56,052 nucleotides of DNA from Natronolimnohabitans sp. A-GB9 (GTDB lineage: Archaea; Halobacteriota; Halobacteria; Halobacteriales; Natrialbaceae): positions 1-56,052 of the forward strand of contig NZ_JAVDDV010000021.1 in the NCBI RefSeq assembly GCF_030848565.1, written 5' to 3'. Both the position numbers and the translations under genes were made by a program. The notes under the pieces are model-generated. The model was not told where the DNA came from. It saw only the letters and a list, made by a program, of their open reading frames with translations, and did no database searches. Positions 3,255-46,995 of the stretch are shown piece after piece (within the stretch, counting starts at the first letter, position 1; each line of letters opens with the position of its first letter).

Positions 3255-3291
3255 CCTTGCGATTATTCATCTGCCAGACGAAGGATTCCGC

Positions 3292-3936
3292 ATGGCGACC
3301 GTAATGGAATTTACGAGTCCGACAGCGGAGTTTCCACTGGGAACTGTGTTCGAGAACTTGCCGGGCGTGACGGTCGAACTAGAACGACTGATTCCTCACG
3401 AAACGCTGATCATTCCGTACTTCTGGGTACGTGGTTCAGAAACAGAGGACATCGAGGCCGAATTCGAACCACACGCTGGCGTGACGGGCATCCGAGTGGT
3501 CGATAGCGTTGAAGACGAGTACCTGATGCGCGCAGAGTGGAAGCAAGAATACTTCGGCGTCCTGAGTGCGCTGGCCAAGGCTAATGTTGTCGTGCTCACT
3601 GGGATCGGAACGAGAGACGAGTGGCGATTCGAGGTGCGCGGCGAAAGTCAGGAAGCAATCGCCGAGTTTCGAGAGTACTGCCAAGAAAACGACATCCCGA
3701 TAGAGATCACCGCTGTCCACGCCATGCTTCCAATTCAGGGGGAGGGCTACGAGCTGACCGAAACCCAGCGTGAGGCACTGGTATTGGCCCACGAGCGCGG
3801 CTACTTCGACACGCCACGTGAGGCGTCGCTCGAAGAGATCGCAGCCGATCTCGGCATTACCCAGCAATCGCTGTCCTCACGACTCCGCCGTGGGCATCGA
3901 CGCCTCATTGGAGCGACCCTTGTTAGTTCGTCGTGA
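3292..3936 (+). CDS. Bat-type HTH_10 transcriptional regulator
   Basis: A 214-residue intact member of the local HTH_10 trio. The N-terminal 150 residues are the Bat-like sensor part. The C-terminus has ELTETQREALVLAHERGYFDTP followed by SLEEIAADLGITQQSLSSRLRRGHRRLI, the helix-turn-helix. It is very similar to the broken gene at 2498-3139 (same length, same order of motifs), so the pair arose by tandem duplication. The remaining functional role is probably carried by this copy. The ATG at 3292 aligns with the start of the neighbour. Confidence 0.92.
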   Translation: MATVMEFTSPTAEFPLGTVFENLPGVTVELERLIPHETLIIPYFWVRGSETEDIEAEFEPHAGVTGIRVVDSVEDEYLMRAEWKQEYFGVLSALAKANVVVLTGIGTRDEWRFEVRGESQEAIAEFREYCQENDIPIEITAVHAMLPIQGEGYELTETQREALVLAHERGYFDTPREASLEEIAADLGITQQSLSSRLRRGHRRLIGATLVSSS

Positions 3937-10077: not shown

Positions 10078-10083
10078 ACCGTC

Positions 10084-10164
10084 ATACGGACTGCTGTCCC
10101 GATTTCCCGCCGATCGCCAGGACGGGGTCGGCGATCGGCGGTCAGTGACGACAGGAGACCGTAT
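10084..10164. repeat. Family A palindromic repeat, copy A1 (full)
   Basis: 81 bp from ATACGG to CCGTAT. Outer arms ATACGG..CTGTC pair with GACAG..CCGTAT; the inner stem CCGCCGATCGCC/GGCGATCGGCGG is a perfect 12 bp. No coding potential. Near-identical copies occur at 28868-28948 and 45568-45648. Confidence 0.85.
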
Positions 10165-10243
10165 CAGTCGCGAATTCGCTGCTCCAGTTCCCGTCGGATT
10201 CGAAAACAGTATCGCTCCTCGAGAAGCGAAGCGTCAGTAGAAG

Positions 10244-17121: not shown

Positions 17122-17701
17122 AAAAGCAGGTGAGAGGAGTAAGCCCCCTTCTGTTCGTCCCGGCATTCGGCTGAGCGTCCGTGCCGTCCGCGGAAACCGC
17201 GGGGCGTTCGGGCTACCACGGCACGGACTTGCACCGGTGAGGGTTCGCCGTTCCATCGATCCTCGGCCGTCTGTGTACGGTCGGTCGCGCCGGGCACGGA
17301 TCGAGGGTGATCCGTACGCGCGACCCGTGGGTTCGAACCACGGTTCGACAACCACACACTGCTTGGCGGGTACACCGCCTCGCATAACGTGGGCGCTTTA
17401 CGACCACGCGGTCTACGGCTGACGCCGTTTCCCTGTCGGCGACTCTCACGTGAGAGTCGCGCCCTCTGCGGGTCAACTCCCCTTCCTCTCGGTCGGGTTC
17501 GCACGCATCATCGGTCGGGCCGAGACGTGTCGTTTCTGTTCCAGAGCCAGCGGTCTCCCGCTCCGGACTTGCGTCCGGTCACCTGCCCGAACAGGTGGGG
17601 GGACTTTCCTCGCGTGCGTGGTGTATCCCAGAGGGATACACGACGTTGAACAGGTGGTCGTCGCCGACACACCCGCCGCGGCAGCCAGGCTCTCTCTCCC
17701 A
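17122..17701 (-). ncRNA. rnpB: RNase P RNA
   Basis: The minus strand carries the universal RNase P core. GAGGAAAGUCCCCCC (5' half of P4, plus-strand complement near 17600-17616) pairs with ACAGAAGGGGGCUUAC (3' half, near 17138-17153). A P1-like pairing joins GGGAGAGAG (from about 17700) with CUCCUCUCACC (from about 17139 down). In between are CAGAAACGA, several strong hairpins (for example GCGACUCUCACGUGAGAGUCGC) and GGUGCAAGUCCGUGCCG. A TTTT run follows near 17121-17125. The RNA trims 5' leaders of pre-tRNAs with protein partners. About 580 nt is on the long side; the ends are estimated to within about 10 bases. Confidence 0.93.
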
Positions 17702-24040: not shown

Positions 24041-24149
24041 ATACTGTTGGACAGCACGAGTCGACGATCGGTCGCGCGACTGCGGCCGTCCCGCGGGTGA
24101 CGGCCCCGAGTTCGCGACCGACGGCTCACTGACTGCTGTCCGACAGTAT
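24041..24149. repeat. Family B palindromic repeat, copy B4 (long form)
   Basis: 109 bp from ATACTGTTGGACAG to CTGTCCGACAGTAT. The interior (CGATCGGTCG.GCGACTGCGGCCGTCC and GAGTTCGCGACCGAC) is nearly identical to copy B3 at 39072-39181, 15 kb away. Confidence 0.83.
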
Positions 24150-28373: not shown

Positions 28374-28868
28374 ATGACGACAGCGCCTGCGGACGACCAG
28401 TGGGACGAACTCCTCGAGGACGCGACGGCTATCGCCGAGGAGTACCGCGACGACGGCTGGGACGCGGTCGTCCTCGAACCCGAGCGCGTCGTGCCGGTCG
28501 ACGACGAGACACGAATCGGCTTCGACGTCCGTGTCTCCGACGATGAGTACGACCTCGTCGCCGCGCTGATCGAAGACGGCGACGTGACGATCACCGCAGC
28601 CGACGTCTACTACCGACCGCCCGAAAACGAGACTGACCGCCGAATCGCACTCGCAGTCGAGCGCGACGAGGAGACGGAGACCGCCGTGTTCGTCCCGCTA
28701 ACCTACGACGTCGAGGCGTCGCGGTCGGTCTTCGAGACGGCTCTCGAAGGGGGAGAGCTCCTGGCACACGTGATTCCCGAGTCGGCCGGCGACGGCCCCG
28801 AGAACTGGCTGACCTTCTCACACGACGATCCGTCGCTGTTCCTCGAGGCCGACGACCTCGAGGGCTGA
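28374..28868 (+). CDS. Conserved haloarchaeal protein (DUF7529-like)
   Basis: A 164-residue very acidic soluble protein with DDGWDAVVLEPERVVPVDDETRIGFDVRVSDDEYD followed by TITAADVYYRPPENETDRRIALAVERDEETETAVFVPLTYD. I associate it with a haloarchaeal family of unknown function, but I am unsure of the number. Downstream of the lipoate ligase-like gene by 78 bp. The last A of its stop (TGA 28866-28868) is also the first base of family A repeat copy A2. Confidence 0.8.
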   Translation: MTTAPADDQWDELLEDATAIAEEYRDDGWDAVVLEPERVVPVDDETRIGFDVRVSDDEYDLVAALIEDGDVTITAADVYYRPPENETDRRIALAVERDEETETAVFVPLTYDVEASRSVFETALEGGELLAHVIPESAGDGPENWLTFSHDDPSLFLEADDLEG

Positions 28869-28948
28869 TACGGTCTCCTGTCGTCACTGCCCGCCGATCG
28901 CCGCCCCCGTCCTGGCGATCGGCGGGACATCGGGACAGCAGTCCGGAT
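28868..28948. repeat. Family A palindromic repeat, copy A2 (full, inverted)
   Basis: 81 bp, nearly the reverse complement of copy A1. Left ATACGGTCTCCTGTC, right GACAGCAGTCCGGAT (one change from CCGTAT), inner stem CGCCGATCGCC/GGCGATCGGCG. It begins at the last base of the upstream stop codon. Confidence 0.85.
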
Positions 28949-28986
28949 GAAAGCGATCACGAGGGCGAGGCGCAGTCCGCTCCCGG

Positions 28987-29952: not shown

Positions 29953-30295
29953 CCGACTCGTTGTTTTATGCCAATGGGTAATTGTATCGAATCTGCTACA
30001 AAGACTAACGAGCAAAATCACGTCAGACGGTATACAGTTGTCTATCGTGGGACCGTGGTAGTGAGGGCGCTACCCGCGACCCGACGCTCGAGTCCGTACA
30101 CAGCCACTCGAACGGACGCGATCGAAACGGCCGACAGGAGACAGCACCGAATCGAGCGAGAACCGGCGACTGCGCCACGGGAACGTGTCGCCTACCGATG
30201 TAGACGAACCGTTCGCGCTCGAACAACAGTCCACAGGCGTTCTCTTATCCGTCGGTCGATAGCCACCACGGTTGGTGTACTGCCGGACAGCAGTG
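29953..30295. other. Intergenic region upstream of the secreted lectin-fold gene
   Basis: About 340 bases between the two minus-strand genes. AT-rich DNA (29960-30050) probably holds the promoter of the secreted protein. The right end contains the single repeat arm at 30277-30298. No gene was recognised. Confidence 0.45.
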
Positions 30296-31080: not shown

Positions 31081-32217
31081 ATGTCACAGACGCCAGTCGT
31101 AGTCGAGGCGGTACGGACCCCGCAGGGGAAAGAAGACGGCGTGTTCGCCGACCTTCGCAGCGAAGATCTCTCGGTGCCGTTGATCGACGAGATCCTCGCC
31201 GAAACCGGCCTCTCCGGCGACGAAATCGACGATCTGATGTGGGGCTGTGCCCAGCAACGGGGCGAACAGGGGAACAACCTCGCCCGCGTTATCGCCTTGC
31301 TCTCCGATCTCGGTGAAGGCGTCCCCGCGACGACGATCAATCGCTGGTGTGCCTCCTCGATGCAGTCGGTGATCTCCGCATCCGACGCCATCGCTGCGGG
31401 CAACCGCGACGCCATCATCGCCGGCGGTGTCGAGAGCATGACCCGCGTCCAGATGGGCGAAAACACCCACAACGTCCACCCACGGATGGCCGAACTGTAC
31501 AACATCGGCGAACTCCAGATGGGGATGACCGCCGAGAAGGTCGCCGAGGAGTACGACATCAGCCGCGAGAAACAGGACGAGTACGCCGCCCAGAGCCAGC
31601 AACGCGCTGTCGAGGCCACCGAAGCGGGTCGTTTCGACGACGAAATCGTCCCGATCGAGACCGACGACGGAACGGTCGAGGAAGACGAGGGGCTCCGACC
31701 CGGCACCTCCGCCGAGAAGCTCGCCGAACTACCGACCGTCTTCAAGTCCGATGGCTCCGTCACGCCCGGCAACGCCTCCCAGATCTCCGATGGCGCCTCC
31801 GCACTGCTCGTCACCAGCGAGGCGTTCGCGAAAGAACACGACCTCGAGATCCTGGCCGAGGTCGGCACGAACAACGTCGCCGGCGTCGACCCGACCGTCA
31901 TGGGGATCGGTCCGGTACCCGCGACGCGTGGCCTGCTCGAGCGCAACGGGCGCGACATCGACGATTACGATCTGGTCGAACTCAACGAGGCCTTCGCCAG
32001 CCAGTCGATCTACTCACGTGACGAACTCGGGATCGATCCCGAGATCTTCAACGTCAACGGCGGTGCCATCGCCATCGGACACCCGCTTGGCGCCTCGGGC
32101 GCACGCCTCCCCGTCACCCTGATCCACGAACTCAGGAAGCGTGGCGGCGGCCGCGGACTCGCGACGCTGTGTGTCGGCTTCGGTCAAGGTGCGGCGATCG
32201 AGTTCGAAGTCAACTGA
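31081..32217 (+). CDS. Thiolase (acetyl-CoA C-acetyltransferase)
   Basis: A 378-residue thiolase. The acyl-accepting Cys90 lies in TINRWCASSMQS; the other signatures are NVNGGAIAIGHPLGASGAR (His) and LCVGFGQGAAI (second Cys). It condenses two acetyl-CoA or cleaves 3-ketoacyl-CoA, in beta-oxidation or polyhydroxyalkanoate/mevalonate pathways. A fatty acyl-CoA synthetase is encoded at 36863-38857, which supports fatty acid use. ATG 31081 starts the domain directly. The stop codon overlaps the divergent repeat copy A5. Confidence 0.95.
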   Translation: MSQTPVVVEAVRTPQGKEDGVFADLRSEDLSVPLIDEILAETGLSGDEIDDLMWGCAQQRGEQGNNLARVIALLSDLGEGVPATTINRWCASSMQSVISASDAIAAGNRDAIIAGGVESMTRVQMGENTHNVHPRMAELYNIGELQMGMTAEKVAEEYDISREKQDEYAAQSQQRAVEATEAGRFDDEIVPIETDDGTVEEDEGLRPGTSAEKLAELPTVFKSDGSVTPGNASQISDGASALLVTSEAFAKEHDLEILAEVGTNNVAGVDPTVMGIGPVPATRGLLERNGRDIDDYDLVELNEAFASQSIYSRDELGIDPEIFNVNGGAIAIGHPLGASGARLPVTLIHELRKRGGGRGLATLCVGFGQGAAIEFEVN

Positions 32218-32298
32218 GACGGATTGCTGTAACGGTCTACCGGCGCAACCGCCGCCCAGGTCGCGGTTGCGCCGACAATGACGTACAGGAGACCGTAT
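32217..32298. repeat. Family A palindromic repeat, copy A5 (divergent, full)
   Basis: 82 bp, from AGACGG at the last base of the thioesterolytic thiolase stop codon to CCGTAT. Outer arm CTGTA/TACAG replaces CTGTC/GACAG of A1. The inner stem GGCGCAACCGC/GCGGTTGCGCC (11 bp, perfect) has a different sequence from A1-A3 but pairs fully. Confidence 0.75.
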
Positions 32299-32443
32299 GA
32301 GACGGACGGCGAGATTCGGCCGCCGATTCACGCTTTCTCGAGCGTGACACCGACGGACGATCGTTTCGAGACGCGAACCAGAACACTGCTATACAACCCG
32401 ACATCACCGGATCTTTAGATAGCTCGAGCCCGTCGAAACTGGT

Positions 32444-32856: not shown

Positions 32857-32934
32857 TACTGCCGGACGGAACGGGTGTGAGCATTTTCGCTTCCATCAGG
32901 CGAACCCGCTTCAGTGACTGCTGTCCGGCAGTAT
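32857..32934. repeat. Family B palindromic repeat, copy B2 (full)
   Basis: 78 bp, TACTGCCGGACGG at the left and CTGTCCGGCAGTAT at the right. CAGTGACTGCTGTCC motif and a GCTTCCATCAGGCG interior close to that of B1. Not adjacent to a stop codon; it lies about 45 bp after one. Confidence 0.8.
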
Positions 32935-34264: not shown

Positions 34265-34300
34265 GAAGCAGACAGCGGTAACGCGTTACAGCAGTCCGTC

Positions 34301-35992
34301 TCAGTCGTCGGCCGGCGTGACGCCGACGTCCGGATCCTCGAGCGTCGCTTCCGGCACCGTCCCGTCGTCGTTCCAGCCGCGTTCGGCGTAGTACTCCTCG
34401 AGTCCGTCCTCGAAGTCCGGGATCTCGTAGGGGACGGCGTCGTCGTCACGGTCGAAGCCGCGCTGGTTGTTGAAGTGCCGTTCGAGCGAGACGACCATCG
34501 CGCCCAGTTCCTGTAGCTCCTCGTAGTCGGCGTCGAGCAGTTTCTCCAGACGGTCTGGGGTCACGAAGTCCCGCGAGAACTTACAGAGGACGGCGCTGTC
34601 TTTGATCGCGTTTACGTTCTCGAGTTCGATGATCTTCGGCGGTTTCCCCTCGAGTCCGTTCTTGTCGAAGGCGTCGTCGGCGTCGACCAGCGGGTACTCG
34701 TAGGGGTAGAACTCGGCGTACATGTGGTCGGCGCCGCGGTTCGACGTAGCGAAGGCCAGCCCCTGGCCGTTGAGCGCGCGACCGTCGTGGGCGGGGAACT
34801 CCATGCCTTTGACCGTCCAGTTGTCGACGCCGAGTTCGTCGTGGACGCGGTCGACCCCCTCAGCGAGCGTGTCGCCGACGCCCTCGCGGTAGGCGATCTT
34901 CTCGACGAGGTCGTGGATCAGGTCGGTGTTGCCGAACTCGTCTTCGCTCGCGAGGTAGGCCGCGACGACGTCGCCCGCCGAGATCGTGTCCAGGCCGTAC
35001 TCGTCACAGAGCTTGTTCGATTTCATCACGTCGACGATATCGTCGACGCCCGAGTTCGAACCGAAGGCCATCACCGTCTCGTACTCGGGGCCTTCGGTCT
35101 CGAGGCCCGACGCCTCGTCTCTGGTCGGTAGTTTGCAGGCGAAGGCACACGCCGAGCAGGTGCCTTTCTCGTATTTTTTCTCCTCGACTCGGTCGCCGCT
35201 GATCCCCTCGGCACCCTCGAAGGACAGTTCGGCGAAGTACCGCGTCGGCAACGCTTCGACTTCGTTTGCGTACTCGGTCATCGACGAGGTCCCCTGACGT
35301 TTCATGATGTGATCCGACTGGGCAGCCTCGCCGTGGATCTCCATCTGGAGCGGCGGGATCTCGACCTCGTGGGTCGAGTCGCCGTCGAAGGTGATCGCCT
35401 TGACGTTTTTCGAGCCGAGGACGGCTCCCAGTCCGCCGCGGCCAAAGGCACGCTCTTCGGAGGTCATGATCGAGGCAAAGCGGACCTGATTCTCTCCACC
35501 GGGTCCGATGACGACCGTATGCTCGGATTCGAGCCCGTGTTCGTCCGCGATGTACTCGCAGGTCTCGGGGACGGTCGCCGACTCGAGGTCCGGCACCGGC
35601 TCGAACTCGACGCCCTCGTCGGTGACGTGGACGATGACCAGTTCGTCGCTCGCGCCGGTGATCTCGACGGCGCTGTACCCGGTTCCGGTGAAGTTCCGCG
35701 AGAGGAAGCCGCCGGCGTTAGAGGAGAGCAGCCCGTCTGTCAACGGTGAGACGCCGGTCGCAGACATCCGGCCGGTAAAGCTCATCGTCGAATGTTGGAG
35801 CGGCCCCGTCGCGAAGTAGAGTCGATTCTCGGGTCCCAGCGGATCGGCATCGAAAGGAACCCGATCGTGGGCGAGTTTCGTCCCCAGTGCCCGGCCGCCG
35901 AGGAACGACTCGAGCACGTCGTCGATCGCCTCCGTTTCGACGGTCCGTTCTCCGACGTCGACCGAACACAGCGGTCCTCGTACGTGTTTCAT
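34301..35992 (-). CDS. Aldehyde ferredoxin oxidoreductase (tungsten enzyme)
   Basis: A 563-residue AOR-family protein that oxidises aldehydes to acids with a tungsten bis-pterin and a 4Fe-4S cluster, passing electrons to ferredoxin. N-domain: FLGGRALGTKL and PENRLYFATGPL. AGGFLSRNFTGTGYSAVEI and GPGGENQVRFASIMTSEERAFGRGGLGAVLGSKN are the cofactor contacts. CSACAFAC plus a distant Cys in VLCKFSRDF form the CxxCxxxC...C cluster site. ATG 35992 is natural. MoaB (6371-6955) would help build its cofactor. The aldehyde substrate is unknown. Confidence 0.95.
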   Translation of the reverse strand: MKHVRGPLCSVDVGERTVETEAIDDVLESFLGGRALGTKLAHDRVPFDADPLGPENRLYFATGPLQHSTMSFTGRMSATGVSPLTDGLLSSNAGGFLSRNFTGTGYSAVEITGASDELVIVHVTDEGVEFEPVPDLESATVPETCEYIADEHGLESEHTVVIGPGGENQVRFASIMTSEERAFGRGGLGAVLGSKNVKAITFDGDSTHEVEIPPLQMEIHGEAAQSDHIMKRQGTSSMTEYANEVEALPTRYFAELSFEGAEGISGDRVEEKKYEKGTCSACAFACKLPTRDEASGLETEGPEYETVMAFGSNSGVDDIVDVMKSNKLCDEYGLDTISAGDVVAAYLASEDEFGNTDLIHDLVEKIAYREGVGDTLAEGVDRVHDELGVDNWTVKGMEFPAHDGRALNGQGLAFATSNRGADHMYAEFYPYEYPLVDADDAFDKNGLEGKPPKIIELENVNAIKDSAVLCKFSRDFVTPDRLEKLLDADYEELQELGAMVVSLERHFNNQRGFDRDDDAVPYEIPDFEDGLEEYYAERGWNDDGTVPEATLEDPDVGVTPADD

Positions 35993-36062
35993 GCGACGTA
36001 GTGGCTTACGCGGGAGCAAAATGATACCGGTTTCTGTTATCAGCGTTACTGTTCAGTGTTGA

Positions 36063-39071: not shown

Positions 39072-39181
39072 ATACTGCCGGACAGAACGATTCACCGATC
39101 GGTCGTGCGACTGCGGCCGTCCCAACGGGTGACGGCTGCGAGTTCGCGACCGACGTGTTACTGACTGCTGTCCGGCAGTAT
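39072..39181. repeat. Family B palindromic repeat, copy B3 (long form)
   Basis: 110 bp from ATACTGCCGGACAG to CTGTCCGGCAGTAT, a perfect 14-bp terminal inverted repeat. Interior almost identical to B4. On the minus strand its first A is the last base of the TAA stop of the MBL hydrolase gene. Confidence 0.87.
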
Positions 39182-40107: not shown

Positions 40108-40190
40108 ACCGGTATCCCGTCAGCGGACGAGATAAAAGCTGGCTTCGCGGTCGAATCGTCGGTCGGTCGACACCTGATCGGTGGACGATC

Positions 40191-40216
40191 ATACGGACTG
40201 CTGTCCCGATGTATCA
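40191..40216. repeat. Internally deleted family A repeat at the CDF stop (A7)
   Basis: ATACGGACTGCTGTCCCGAT (the left 20 bases of A1) is followed directly by GTAT and the stop codon complement. The interior is missing. On the minus strand TGA of the CDF gene shares its A with the start of ATAC. Confidence 0.65.
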
Positions 40217-44417: not shown

Positions 44418-44987
44418 ATGAGCGTTCGGCACGATTTCTGGTCGATCTATCGCGAAGCCCTCCCCATCCTGATCGTCGCTCTGGGCGGCGGACTGTTTGC
44501 CGGGCTCGTCCTCGAGTCGATCATCGAGAGCGTCGAGCGGTTTCCCGGGCTACTAGTGATGGTCCCGGTGTTTCTCGCCACACGGGGGAACGTCTACGGC
44601 GCGTTGGGTGGACGAATCTCCAGTGGACTTCACCAGGGGCTGATCGAACCGCGATTCGAGTGGGACGAGCGACTCGTCAACGCCGTGCTGGCGTCGTTTA
44701 TCAACGGGATCGGTATCTCGATCGCTATCGGCGTCATCACCTGGGTCGCGCTGTTGCTCATCGGCTGGGAGGTCGCGGCGCTGTACGAACTCGTCGCGAT
44801 CATGCTCGTTGCCGGGGCGTTGACGTCGGTCGTGATGATCGCCGGCCTGCTCGGGCTGATCTTCCTCGGTTACAAACACGGCTACGACCCCGACAACCTC
44901 GTCGGCCCGATCGTGACGACCCTCGGTGATATCTTCGGGATGCTCTTTATGCTGTTCTCGGTCAGCTTCGTGGAGGTGCTGATCTGA
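44418..44987 (+). CDS. MgtE-like transmembrane subunit 1
   Basis: A 189-residue membrane protein made only of the MgtE channel part (five helices): EALPILIVALGGGLFAGLVLESI, LLVMVPVFLATRGNVYGALGGRISSGLHQG (pore signature with GN.YGALG) and DNLVGPIVTTLGDIFGMLF. There are no CBS or N-domains. The stop overlaps the start of a second such gene (TGATG), so the two may form a heterodimeric channel. The ion is probably Mg2+ but unproven. Confidence 0.9.
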   Translation: MSVRHDFWSIYREALPILIVALGGGLFAGLVLESIIESVERFPGLLVMVPVFLATRGNVYGALGGRISSGLHQGLIEPRFEWDERLVNAVLASFINGIGISIAIGVITWVALLLIGWEVAALYELVAIMLVAGALTSVVMIAGLLGLIFLGYKHGYDPDNLVGPIVTTLGDIFGMLFMLFSVSFVEVLI

Positions 44988-45568
44988 TGGTCGCCGTCGG
45001 CGGCTCGCTTGGCACCTGGGAGTGGAAACGCATCGTGACGAACATGTTTCCGCTGCTGGTGATCCTCTCGATCATCGTCCTCTGGGCAGGGATCACACTC
45101 GAAGGCGCAGAGGAGATGATCGAGGAGATCTCCATCCTCGCGGTGATGGTACCGACGATGGTCGACATGGGTGGCAACCTCGGTGCGATCCTGAGTTCAC
45201 GACTCTCCTCGCGCTTTCATCTGGGAACGACGGAGCTCGATCCCCGCGATCGGGTGCTCTGGGCGAACGTCGCGGCGATCCTCGCACTCGCGGCGACGAT
45301 CTTTACGGCGCTGGCGATCGGCGCCGCCGCGCTTGACGTCGTCCTCTACGGGGGTGCGGTCGGCTTCGGACCACTGTTGTTCATCTCGCTCGTCAGCGGG
45401 ATGTCCGTCGCCGTCATCGCGATCGTCTTCAGCTTCGCGGCGACCTACGGCTCCTACCGATTGGGGATCGACCCCGACGATACGACGATTCCGATCGTCA
45501 CGAACGTCGTCGACGTCTTCGGGATGGTCATCTTCATCGGCGTCTCGGCGCTCGTACTCGGGTTCTGA
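44987..45568 (+). CDS. MgtE-like transmembrane subunit 2
   Basis: A 193-residue partner of the preceding gene: LLVILSIIVLWAGITLEGAEEM, ILAVMVPTMVDMGGNLGAILSSRLSSRFHLG (pore signature with MGGNLGA) and IPIVTNVVDVFGMVIFIGV. Translation starts inside the previous stop. The last A of its own stop is the first base of family A repeat A3. Together with the CBS-carrying MgtE at 43057 the locus encodes three MgtE channel modules. Confidence 0.9.
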   Translation: MVAVGGSLGTWEWKRIVTNMFPLLVILSIIVLWAGITLEGAEEMIEEISILAVMVPTMVDMGGNLGAILSSRLSSRFHLGTTELDPRDRVLWANVAAILALAATIFTALAIGAAALDVVLYGGAVGFGPLLFISLVSGMSVAVIAIVFSFAATYGSYRLGIDPDDTTIPIVTNVVDVFGMVIFIGVSALVLGF

Positions 45569-45648
45569 TACGGACTGCCGTACCGATCTCCCGCCGGTCG
45601 CCGACCCCATACTGGCGATCGGCGGACAGTGACGACTGGAGACCGTAT
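45568..45648. repeat. Family A palindromic repeat, copy A3 (full)
   Basis: 81 bp from ATACGG to CCGTAT, starting at the last base of the upstream stop codon. Inner stem CCGCCGGTCGCC/GGCGATCGGCGG pairs over 12 positions with one G-T pair. Same orientation as A1. Confidence 0.85.
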
Positions 45649-45692
45649 GATAGATCGATTTTAGCGGCTGGGCAGTGAAGTCAAACGGCGAG

Positions 45693-46466
45693 ATGCCCCC
45701 GCTTCCGGTCGAGCTCGTCGTCGTCCTCGTCGGGATCTCGCTGCTGGCTGGAATCGGCTGTACGACGACCGGCGCAGGCGGTATCTTCGTCACGATCGCC
45801 CTCTATGTATTCACGCCGCTGTCATCCGCGGAGGTCGCCGGCACCGCACACGTCGTGTTCGTCGCCGTCGGATTCGTCGGCGCGATCGGCTTTACGCGCT
45901 CGGGAGAACTGCTCGGTGCCGACGGACGGGCTCTAGCGGTGATTCTCAGCACGACGAGTGTCCTCGGTGCGGTAAGCGGCGCTTACCTGAACGCGTACGT
46001 TTCCCGGAGACTGTTCAGTATCCTACTCGGGACCCTCACCGCTGTCACCGGTCTCGTCCTGTTGTACGGCCAGTTTCACGACCTCCCCGCGATCGTGGCC
46101 GTCGATACGGACGCGATCGGGGGCCGACTCGCGTTTGGATCCGTCGGGCTGTTTCTCGGCGTCGCCTCGGGGCTCGTGGGGATCGGCGGCCCGATACTCG
46201 CCGTCCCGGTGCTAGTCACGCTTGGCGTACCGCTGTTGCTTTCTCTCGGCGTCGCACAGGTACAGGCGATCTTCATCTCGGGCTTTGCAGCCGGTGGGTA
46301 CTTCGCCCAGGACGCAATCTCGCCGTTCTTCGCGGCGCTTACTGGAATCCCGACCGTCGTCGGCGCCGTCGGTGGCTGGATCATCGCCCACCACGTCGAT
46401 CCCGACCACCTCGAGCTCGTTCTCGGTGGGATCCTGATCCCCACGGGGCTGTATCTCCTCGTCTGA
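45693..46466 (+). CDS. TSUP (TauE/SafE) family transporter
   Basis: A 257-residue membrane protein with about eight helices in two halves. The repeated motif GIGCTTTGAGGIFVTIALYVF in the first half and GVASGLVGIGGPILAVPVLVTLGVP in the second are typical of TauE/SafE anion exporters. AHVVFVAVGFVGAI follows in the first half. The substrate (sulfite, sulfoacetate or other anion) is unknown. ATG 45693 is chosen; a GTG at 45675 would add six residues. Its stop is overlapped by the repeat arm A4. Confidence 0.92.
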   Translation: MPPLPVELVVVLVGISLLAGIGCTTTGAGGIFVTIALYVFTPLSSAEVAGTAHVVFVAVGFVGAIGFTRSGELLGADGRALAVILSTTSVLGAVSGAYLNAYVSRRLFSILLGTLTAVTGLVLLYGQFHDLPAIVAVDTDAIGGRLAFGSVGLFLGVASGLVGIGGPILAVPVLVTLGVPLLLSLGVAQVQAIFISGFAAGGYFAQDAISPFFAALTGIPTVVGAVGGWIIAHHVDPDHLELVLGGILIPTGLYLLV

Positions 46467-46483
46467 TACGGATCGCTGTACCG
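46466..46483. repeat. Half end of a family A repeat (A4)
   Basis: ATACGGATCGCTGTACCG starts at the last base of the TSUP stop. No right arm follows; instead the sequence runs into a fragment of an SDR gene on the minus strand. Confidence 0.6.
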
Positions 46484-46811: not shown

Positions 46812-46945
46812 CCGGGCTCGACCGAACGATCCGGCTCGGAGTGTCCGGGCGGACGGTCCTCCCGGTGACCCTCGCAGTGATCGTCGCCGTCCTCGGCGCC
46901 TTGCTCTACCTGGAGCTCGTGTTCCTGTTGCTCGAGTACGTCTGA
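46808..46945 (+). CDS. Small single-helix membrane protein
   Basis: A 45-residue protein: a polar N-terminus (MTGLDRTIRLGVSGRTV) and one hydrophobic helix (LPVTLAVIVAVLGALLYLELVFLLL), ending EYV. Codon third positions are GC-rich. The last A of its stop is the first base of the partial repeat A6. Function unknown. Confidence 0.5.
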   Translation: MTGLDRTIRLGVSGRTVLPVTLAVIVAVLGALLYLELVFLLLEYV

Positions 46946-46995
46946 GACGGACCGCTGTCGAGCGGTATCGGTACACTCGGGGCACGTGTACCGAT
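46945..46995. repeat. Partial family A repeat (A6)
   Basis: AGACGGACCGCTGTC at the last base of a stop codon, then an inner stem ATCGGTACAC/GTGTACCGAT (10 bp, perfect, new sequence). The right outer arm is degenerate or lost. Confidence 0.6.

Follow-up and report, generated by a model that had tools for sequence, protein, structure and literature searches.

A MITE-like repeat family of haloarchaea with covarying stems, invertible loops and a bias for stop codons

Insertion sequences of one subgroup of the IS5 family are known to produce TNA duplications. For PIF/Harbinger elements, a 3-bp TSD is described in PMC2213677. The nearest described elements to the repeats analyzed here are the MITEs and SMRs of Haloquadratum. 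Prokaryotic MITEs, including those of H. walsbyi (PMC3119063; review PMC10969869), are short, non-coding and multicopy, are bounded by TIRs and a TSD and occur in nested insertions. SMR-A of Haloquadratum (PMC3119063) is approximately 80-110 bp in length, carries TIRs, has a target preference and has no known related transposon. SMRs are inserted without target duplication, and PATEs and IS200/IS605-derived elements have subterminal palindromes with neither TIR nor TSD. Processes acting on such palindromic sequences have also been described: template switching between the arms of an inverted repeat homogenises the arms and inverts the spacer (PMC8604942), and it can create and maintain RNA hairpins (PMC8794818). 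The repeats described below have a TIR at both ends and a 3-bp TSD, are short and non-coding and are present in high copy number, as is characteristic of MITEs; the TSD sets them apart from SMRs, and the combination of TIR and TSD from PATE and IS200/IS605 derivatives.

Architecture of A5 and related copies

The window analyzed is a stretch of 56,052 nucleotides from Natronolimnohabitans sp. A-GB9 (contig NZ_JAVDDV010000021.1). Element A5, identified by a match to the covariance model and aligned with 59 further copies, occupies positions 32218-32297 (+) and is 80 nt long. An earlier note, made from the letters of this DNA, had given the repeat as 32217-32298; the element proper is slightly shorter, and it is flanked by two TSDs with the sequence TGA at 32215-32217 and 32298-32300 (+), both recognised from the sequence and from the TSD statistics given below. 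The left TGA is an exact match to the stop codon of the listed ORF 31081-32217. The inner stem of A5, referred to as family II, is a perfect 12-bp helix formed by CGGCGCAACCGC (32241-32252) and GCGGTTGCGCCG (32263-32274) around a loop at 32253-32262 (all +), and the outer arms are GACGGATTGCTGT/ACAGGAGACCGTA.

The other three complete copies in the window, likewise recovered by the covariance model, have the family-I stem CCGCCGATCGCC/GGCGATCGGCGG, with one change in A4. Element A1 (10085-10163, +) is flanked by TCA at 10082-10084 and 10164-10166 and has inner arms of the CCGCCGATCGCC type at 10107-10118 and 10130-10141. Element A2 (28869-28947, -) lies between TGA triplets at 28866-28868 and 28948-28950, the left of which is the stop codon of ORF 28374-28868, and its CCGCCGATCGCC-type arms are at 28890-28902 and 28914-28926. 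In A4 (45569-45647, +; TGA at 45566-45568 and 45648-45650) the loop is inverted relative to A1 and A2, and the left triplet is again a stop codon, that of ORF 44987-45568. The earlier note had stated that A5 differs from A1-A3 in its inner stem and keeps the pairing, and that its outer CTGTA/TACAG replaces their CTGTC/GACAG; both statements were confirmed against A1 and A2. Both stem types are predicted to fold much more stably than shuffled sequences (z from -3.7 to -4.8 as RNA and from -3.8 to -4.8 as DNA).

Incomplete copies were found as well. These are a solo end at 34288-34303 (-), adjoining the stop codon of ORF 34301-36019, a solo left end (TCATACGGACTGCTGT) at 40189-40204 (+) and another at 46464-46479 (+), at the stop codon of ORF 45675-46466. 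A6 (46943-46995, +) combines a left end with an unrelated 10-bp hairpin (46967-46976/46986-46995). It was not recovered by the covariance model, no right end is recognisable in it, and it is a decayed or chimeric copy; its use as a third example of covariation is therefore invalid, and it was left out of the analyses that follow. For B5 and B3, said to differ by a paired change, no clear change of this kind was established. A B-like short repeat is present, although the identity of B5 and B3 is uncertain.

This second repeat, possibly the B of the earlier note, is ACTGACTGCTGTCCGRCAGTA, often with CCGACGG in front. It is located at 24119-24149, 32904-32934 and 39151-39181 (+) and at 30278-30293 (-), and its core has 50 matches in 1.256 Mb; insertions of the element are found at its edges (L003, L005, L184). 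Elsewhere in the window, archaeal RNase P RNA was matched at 17128-17700 (-) over 573 nt against a model of 288 positions, which may reflect expanded helices or an insert, and two 300-nt direct copies, 78% identical, are located at 2486-2785 and 3280-3579. At approximately 227200-229400 in C1 of the same genome there is a CRISPR-like array whose repeats contain GCTTCAACCCCACAAGGGTTCGTCTGAAA and are spaced about 66 nt apart.

Spread, mobility and position at stop codons

The ends of the family are of the TACGGNNNNCTGT type. In the 4.3-Mb genome of A-GB9 there are 207 occurrences of the end motif TGAKACGGNNNGCTGT, against one of the reversed control, and a profile search over sampled stretches totalling 1.256 Mb recovered 131 copies, which by extrapolation corresponds to about 450 copies per genome. 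A covariance model derived from the A1 type matched 69 of the 101 Natrialbaceae genomes, with 21 of the 29 genera represented; carriers include Natronorubrum bangense, N. sulfidifaciens and Natronolimnohabitans innermongolicus. Relatives were also found on plasmids of Halomicrobium, Halobellus and Natrinema. Rfam 15 gave no match to the element at the gathering threshold, nor did phage and viral collections, and literature searches by sequence and by the combination of stop codon, MITE and TSD, whose coverage excluded most subscription journals, returned no description of the family. It is a wide haloarchaeal repeat family that is largely unannotated. On two Halobellus plasmids (L266, L268) the same architecture and the TNA duplication are kept with quite different TIRs, both ends having changed together; those of L266 are TAATGATTACTCTC...GAGAGTAATCATTA.

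The element is 79-80 nt long and non-coding, with a 13-bp imperfect TIR at both ends. Its flanks were examined in the 66 end-paired copies with TNA on each side. An identical triplet was present on both sides in 59 of them, compared with a mean of 29.5 and a maximum of 44 in 5000 shuffles, and in only 3 of the 66 pairs were the flanks equal when inverted. Because the flanks match directly and only rarely as inverts, TNA is a 3-bp TSD situated outside the TIR; the alternative, that TGA or TCA forms part of the TIR, was rejected on the same grounds. The target derived from the flanks is palindromic and close to CGWC-TNA-GWCG.

G013, a genome of another genus, contains nine identical copies of one version of the element and eleven of another, all at different places and each with a perfect TSD. 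The young copies of G013 include several stem types, and identical young copies are also present in genome G118. Orthologues of the A4 gene in other genera end with the same TGA and lack the element. Such observations indicate that the family is a mobile, MITE-like, presumably non-autonomous element of haloarchaea. No autonomous element with the same ends was found at the DDE_Tnp_1 loci of A-GB9 and G013, among end pairs 0.5-3.5 kb apart, at unpaired ends in G013 or at IS boundaries located by pairwise blastn; since no autonomous relative was found, the label goes no further than "MITE-like". G013 also contains aberrant copies. At L203 (216-352) the element is 137 nt instead of 80, with about 57 nt extra inside the hairpin, and at L209 and L220 loss of the loop and of some arm sequence has left the perfect self-palindrome ACCGGTGATCACCGGT, as expected from slippage at a hairpin.

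Genes were called with a codon-usage gene finder written for this analysis. At 30 of the 59 TSD-bearing copies, including A5, A2 and A4, the adjacent gene has the TSD triplet as its stop codon, and none of the 59 lies inside a gene. The share expected is 6.6% when permissible TNA sites are counted and 16-23% once these sites are weighted for their fit to the target motif (p = 5e-10 to 2e-6), an additive motif that may understate the true target specificity. Avoidance of promoters as the sole cause was rejected, as the bias persists in convergent intergenic regions, where 14 of 20 copies are at stop codons against 12.5% expected (p = 4e-9). Young copies share the bias: by a criterion of our own, about 9 of 20 in G013 are at stops, whereas the figure for control TGAs is 2 of 22. 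A preference at the time of insertion is thus favoured over subsequent sorting. Such a bias offers an abundant mobile element a way to spread in a compact genome with the genes unbroken. It could further be speculated, although we regard this as quite unlikely, that the transposition system actively selects stop codons, guided by the palindrome CGWC-TNA-GWCG or by a property of gene ends, with the duplicated triplet regenerating the TGA stop, and that an invertible, self-correcting tip takes part in replication or transposition, in a way similar to the flip-flop tips of hairpin-ended replicons.

Covariation of the stems and inversion of the loop

Covariation was assessed with an R-scape-like test written here, which is based on the APC-corrected G statistic; for its null, the substitutions inferred on each branch are moved to other columns. 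In the A-GB9 genome (92 copies), 6 of 25 stem pairs were significant. Across genera (164 copies), 11 of the 25 exceeded this phylogeny-preserving null, compared with none of 2825 non-pairs, and most inner-stem pairs were represented by three or four Watson-Crick types; the TIR pair 10-70 covaries too. Because the structure had guided the main alignment, its counts lean towards that structure. A structure-free MAFFT alignment nevertheless gave 7 of 25 pairs, against 0-2 for slid partners. The stem covariation is real and goes beyond phylogeny in all three alignments.

The distribution of changes over the tree differs between recent and older branches. The stem changes assigned to terminal branches comprise 120 that disrupt a pair and 11 double changes that leave it paired; on internal branches there are 33 breaks, 14 double-paired changes and 14 restorations. 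Pairing is thus kept in propagating lineages and largely lost after insertion, in resident copies. The 11 terminal double changes still exceed chance (mean 3.2, maximum 9), and stem sites change less (6.3 changes per site) than spacer and loop sites (8.2-8.6), from which it follows that some residual constraint or continuing correction remains in residents.

These data could be explained by purifying selection on mobile copies to form a DNA hairpin or cruciform, with the inner hairpin being recognised by the transposase or the replication machinery, perhaps alongside exchange between arms. Under this view propagation would be limited to well-paired copies, and the stems would drift through compensatory changes. 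The better retention and restoration of pairs on internal branches, the covariation of the TIR pair and the perfect or near-perfect stems of all young G013 copies, whatever their stem type, agree with such selection, and we consider it possible but less likely than exchange between arms. It leaves the behaviour of the loop unexplained, however.

Among the 62 family-I copies with clear calls, 19, including A4, have the loop inverted relative to the outer arms. Parsimony placed these 19 flipped copies in 18 steps, compared with a mean of 16.5 for shuffled labels; as the steps are no fewer than with shuffled labels, flipping is recurrent and scattered over the tree. The clearest cases are four copies in G013 (L205, L207, L210, L212) that differ from the nine identical copies by 1-2 arm bases and have the loop exactly reverse-complemented, with 0 mismatches to the inverse and 9 to the original. 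Inversion of the spacer combined with homogenised arms is the outcome described for template switching. Since the flips match published products of this process, the paired differences between stems are read mainly as the result of copying from arm to arm. Loop inversion alone fails to distinguish template switching from recombination between copies. Exchange or gene conversion between separate copies in opposite orientation would also swap tips and homogenise stems; hundreds of related copies per genome would provide the partners, and the orientation of the tip assorts independently of the arms. The stem types, however, are consistent with the ends of their subfamilies, so that free exchange of stems is not the rule, and we hold this explanation to be unlikely.

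Selection for an RNA structure, such as a stabiliser in the 3'UTR or a terminator of the gene whose stop codon the element adjoins, would agree with the strong predicted RNA folding and with the location of half of the copies immediately after a stop codon. On the sense strand relative to the upstream gene, G-T mismatches outnumber A-C mismatches by 35 to 22, an excess that is not significant (p = 0.11), and the orientation relative to the gene (29 to 19) shows no clear preference. Neither measure gives a significant signal of selection as RNA, and an RNA function of the element is not supported. Most changes on terminal branches break pairs, 11 of the 59 copies are in divergent regions and Rfam has no counterpart. 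Solo ends were not preferentially retained at stops (14/51 against 37/112, p = 0.59), so that they give no sign of a functional 3'UTR motif. Overall, we consider the RNA explanation decidedly improbable. That A5-type and A1-type elements are unrelated look-alikes, with no covariation to explain, is extremely improbable: although A1 and A5 differ simultaneously in 6 of 12 stem pairs, the two align end to end with common ends, length, spacers, TNA flanks and target, which establishes the relatedness on which the earlier note had made its proposal depend, and graded other stems (CCGGTGCGATCGC, CCGGTGATCACC, CCGGTGATTGCC, CCGGTGGGACCG, CCGTCGTTTGCT) are found across copies and genera.

Overall, it is most likely that stems stay paired mainly by arm-to-arm copying and tip flipping in propagating elements, and we regard as probable the whole explanation of a MITE-like element with a TNA TSD whose stems are kept paired in this way. 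From the outside inwards, each half of the element consists of TNA, the 13-bp imperfect TIR, a spacer and one arm of the inner stem, with the loop in the centre. A putative transposase supplied in trans would move the element; the flanks show that insertion duplicates 3 bp (TNA) inside a palindromic target near CGWC-TNA-GWCG, and at a TGA stop the duplication would regenerate the stop and presumably leave the gene intact. Template switching or an equivalent recombination, the probable source of the observed signature, would copy one inner arm onto the other and invert the loop. Propagating lineages would keep or renew a perfect stem, several versions such as the A1 and A5 types being amplified in parallel, and resident copies would then decay. 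Among the causes suggested earlier, exchange between arms has gained the best support, from the recurrent loop inversion, and selection for an RNA fold has not been supported. The earlier note had recognised the paired stems and had missed the mobility, the 3-bp TSDs and the position at stop codons.

Hundreds of copies per genome constitute a natural experiment in which covariation can arise without RNA function, which calls for caution when covariation is used to discover RNAs among repeats. Template switching between arms predicts loop inversion, and here the inversions can be counted. A haloarchaeal repeat family thereby gains a testable mechanism.

Comparison with known systems

Mycobacterial MIRUs, in work of 1997 attributed to Supply, reportedly insert at DTGA sites, and this insertion is said to overlap TGA stop codons, as it does here. 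MIRUs carry small ORFs and lack a palindromic structure like the one found here. IS5-family and PIF/Harbinger elements likewise have a 3-bp duplication of the TNA type, and no transposase link to them was found here.

The features listed above for prokaryotic MITEs, nested insertions included, are all shared by the present family (PMC3119063; PMC10969869). It differs from those MITEs in that no parent transposon was found, in the 3-bp TNA TSD, in the strong stop-codon bias and in an inner hairpin that is invertible and whose paired stem exists in many versions; the words "stop codon" are absent from the review PMC10969869. SMR-A is similar in length, TIRs, target preference and the lack of a known related transposon, but SMRs target PATE/IS605 palindromes without duplication, whereas the elements here have a 3-bp TSD and lie behind genes. 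With quasipalindrome template switching (PMC8604942, PMC8794818) the family shares arm homogenisation, instantaneous compensatory changes and inversion of the loop or spacer. In rRNA such loop inversion is very rare, whereas here it is found in about 31% of family-I copies, over hundreds of copies of one element.
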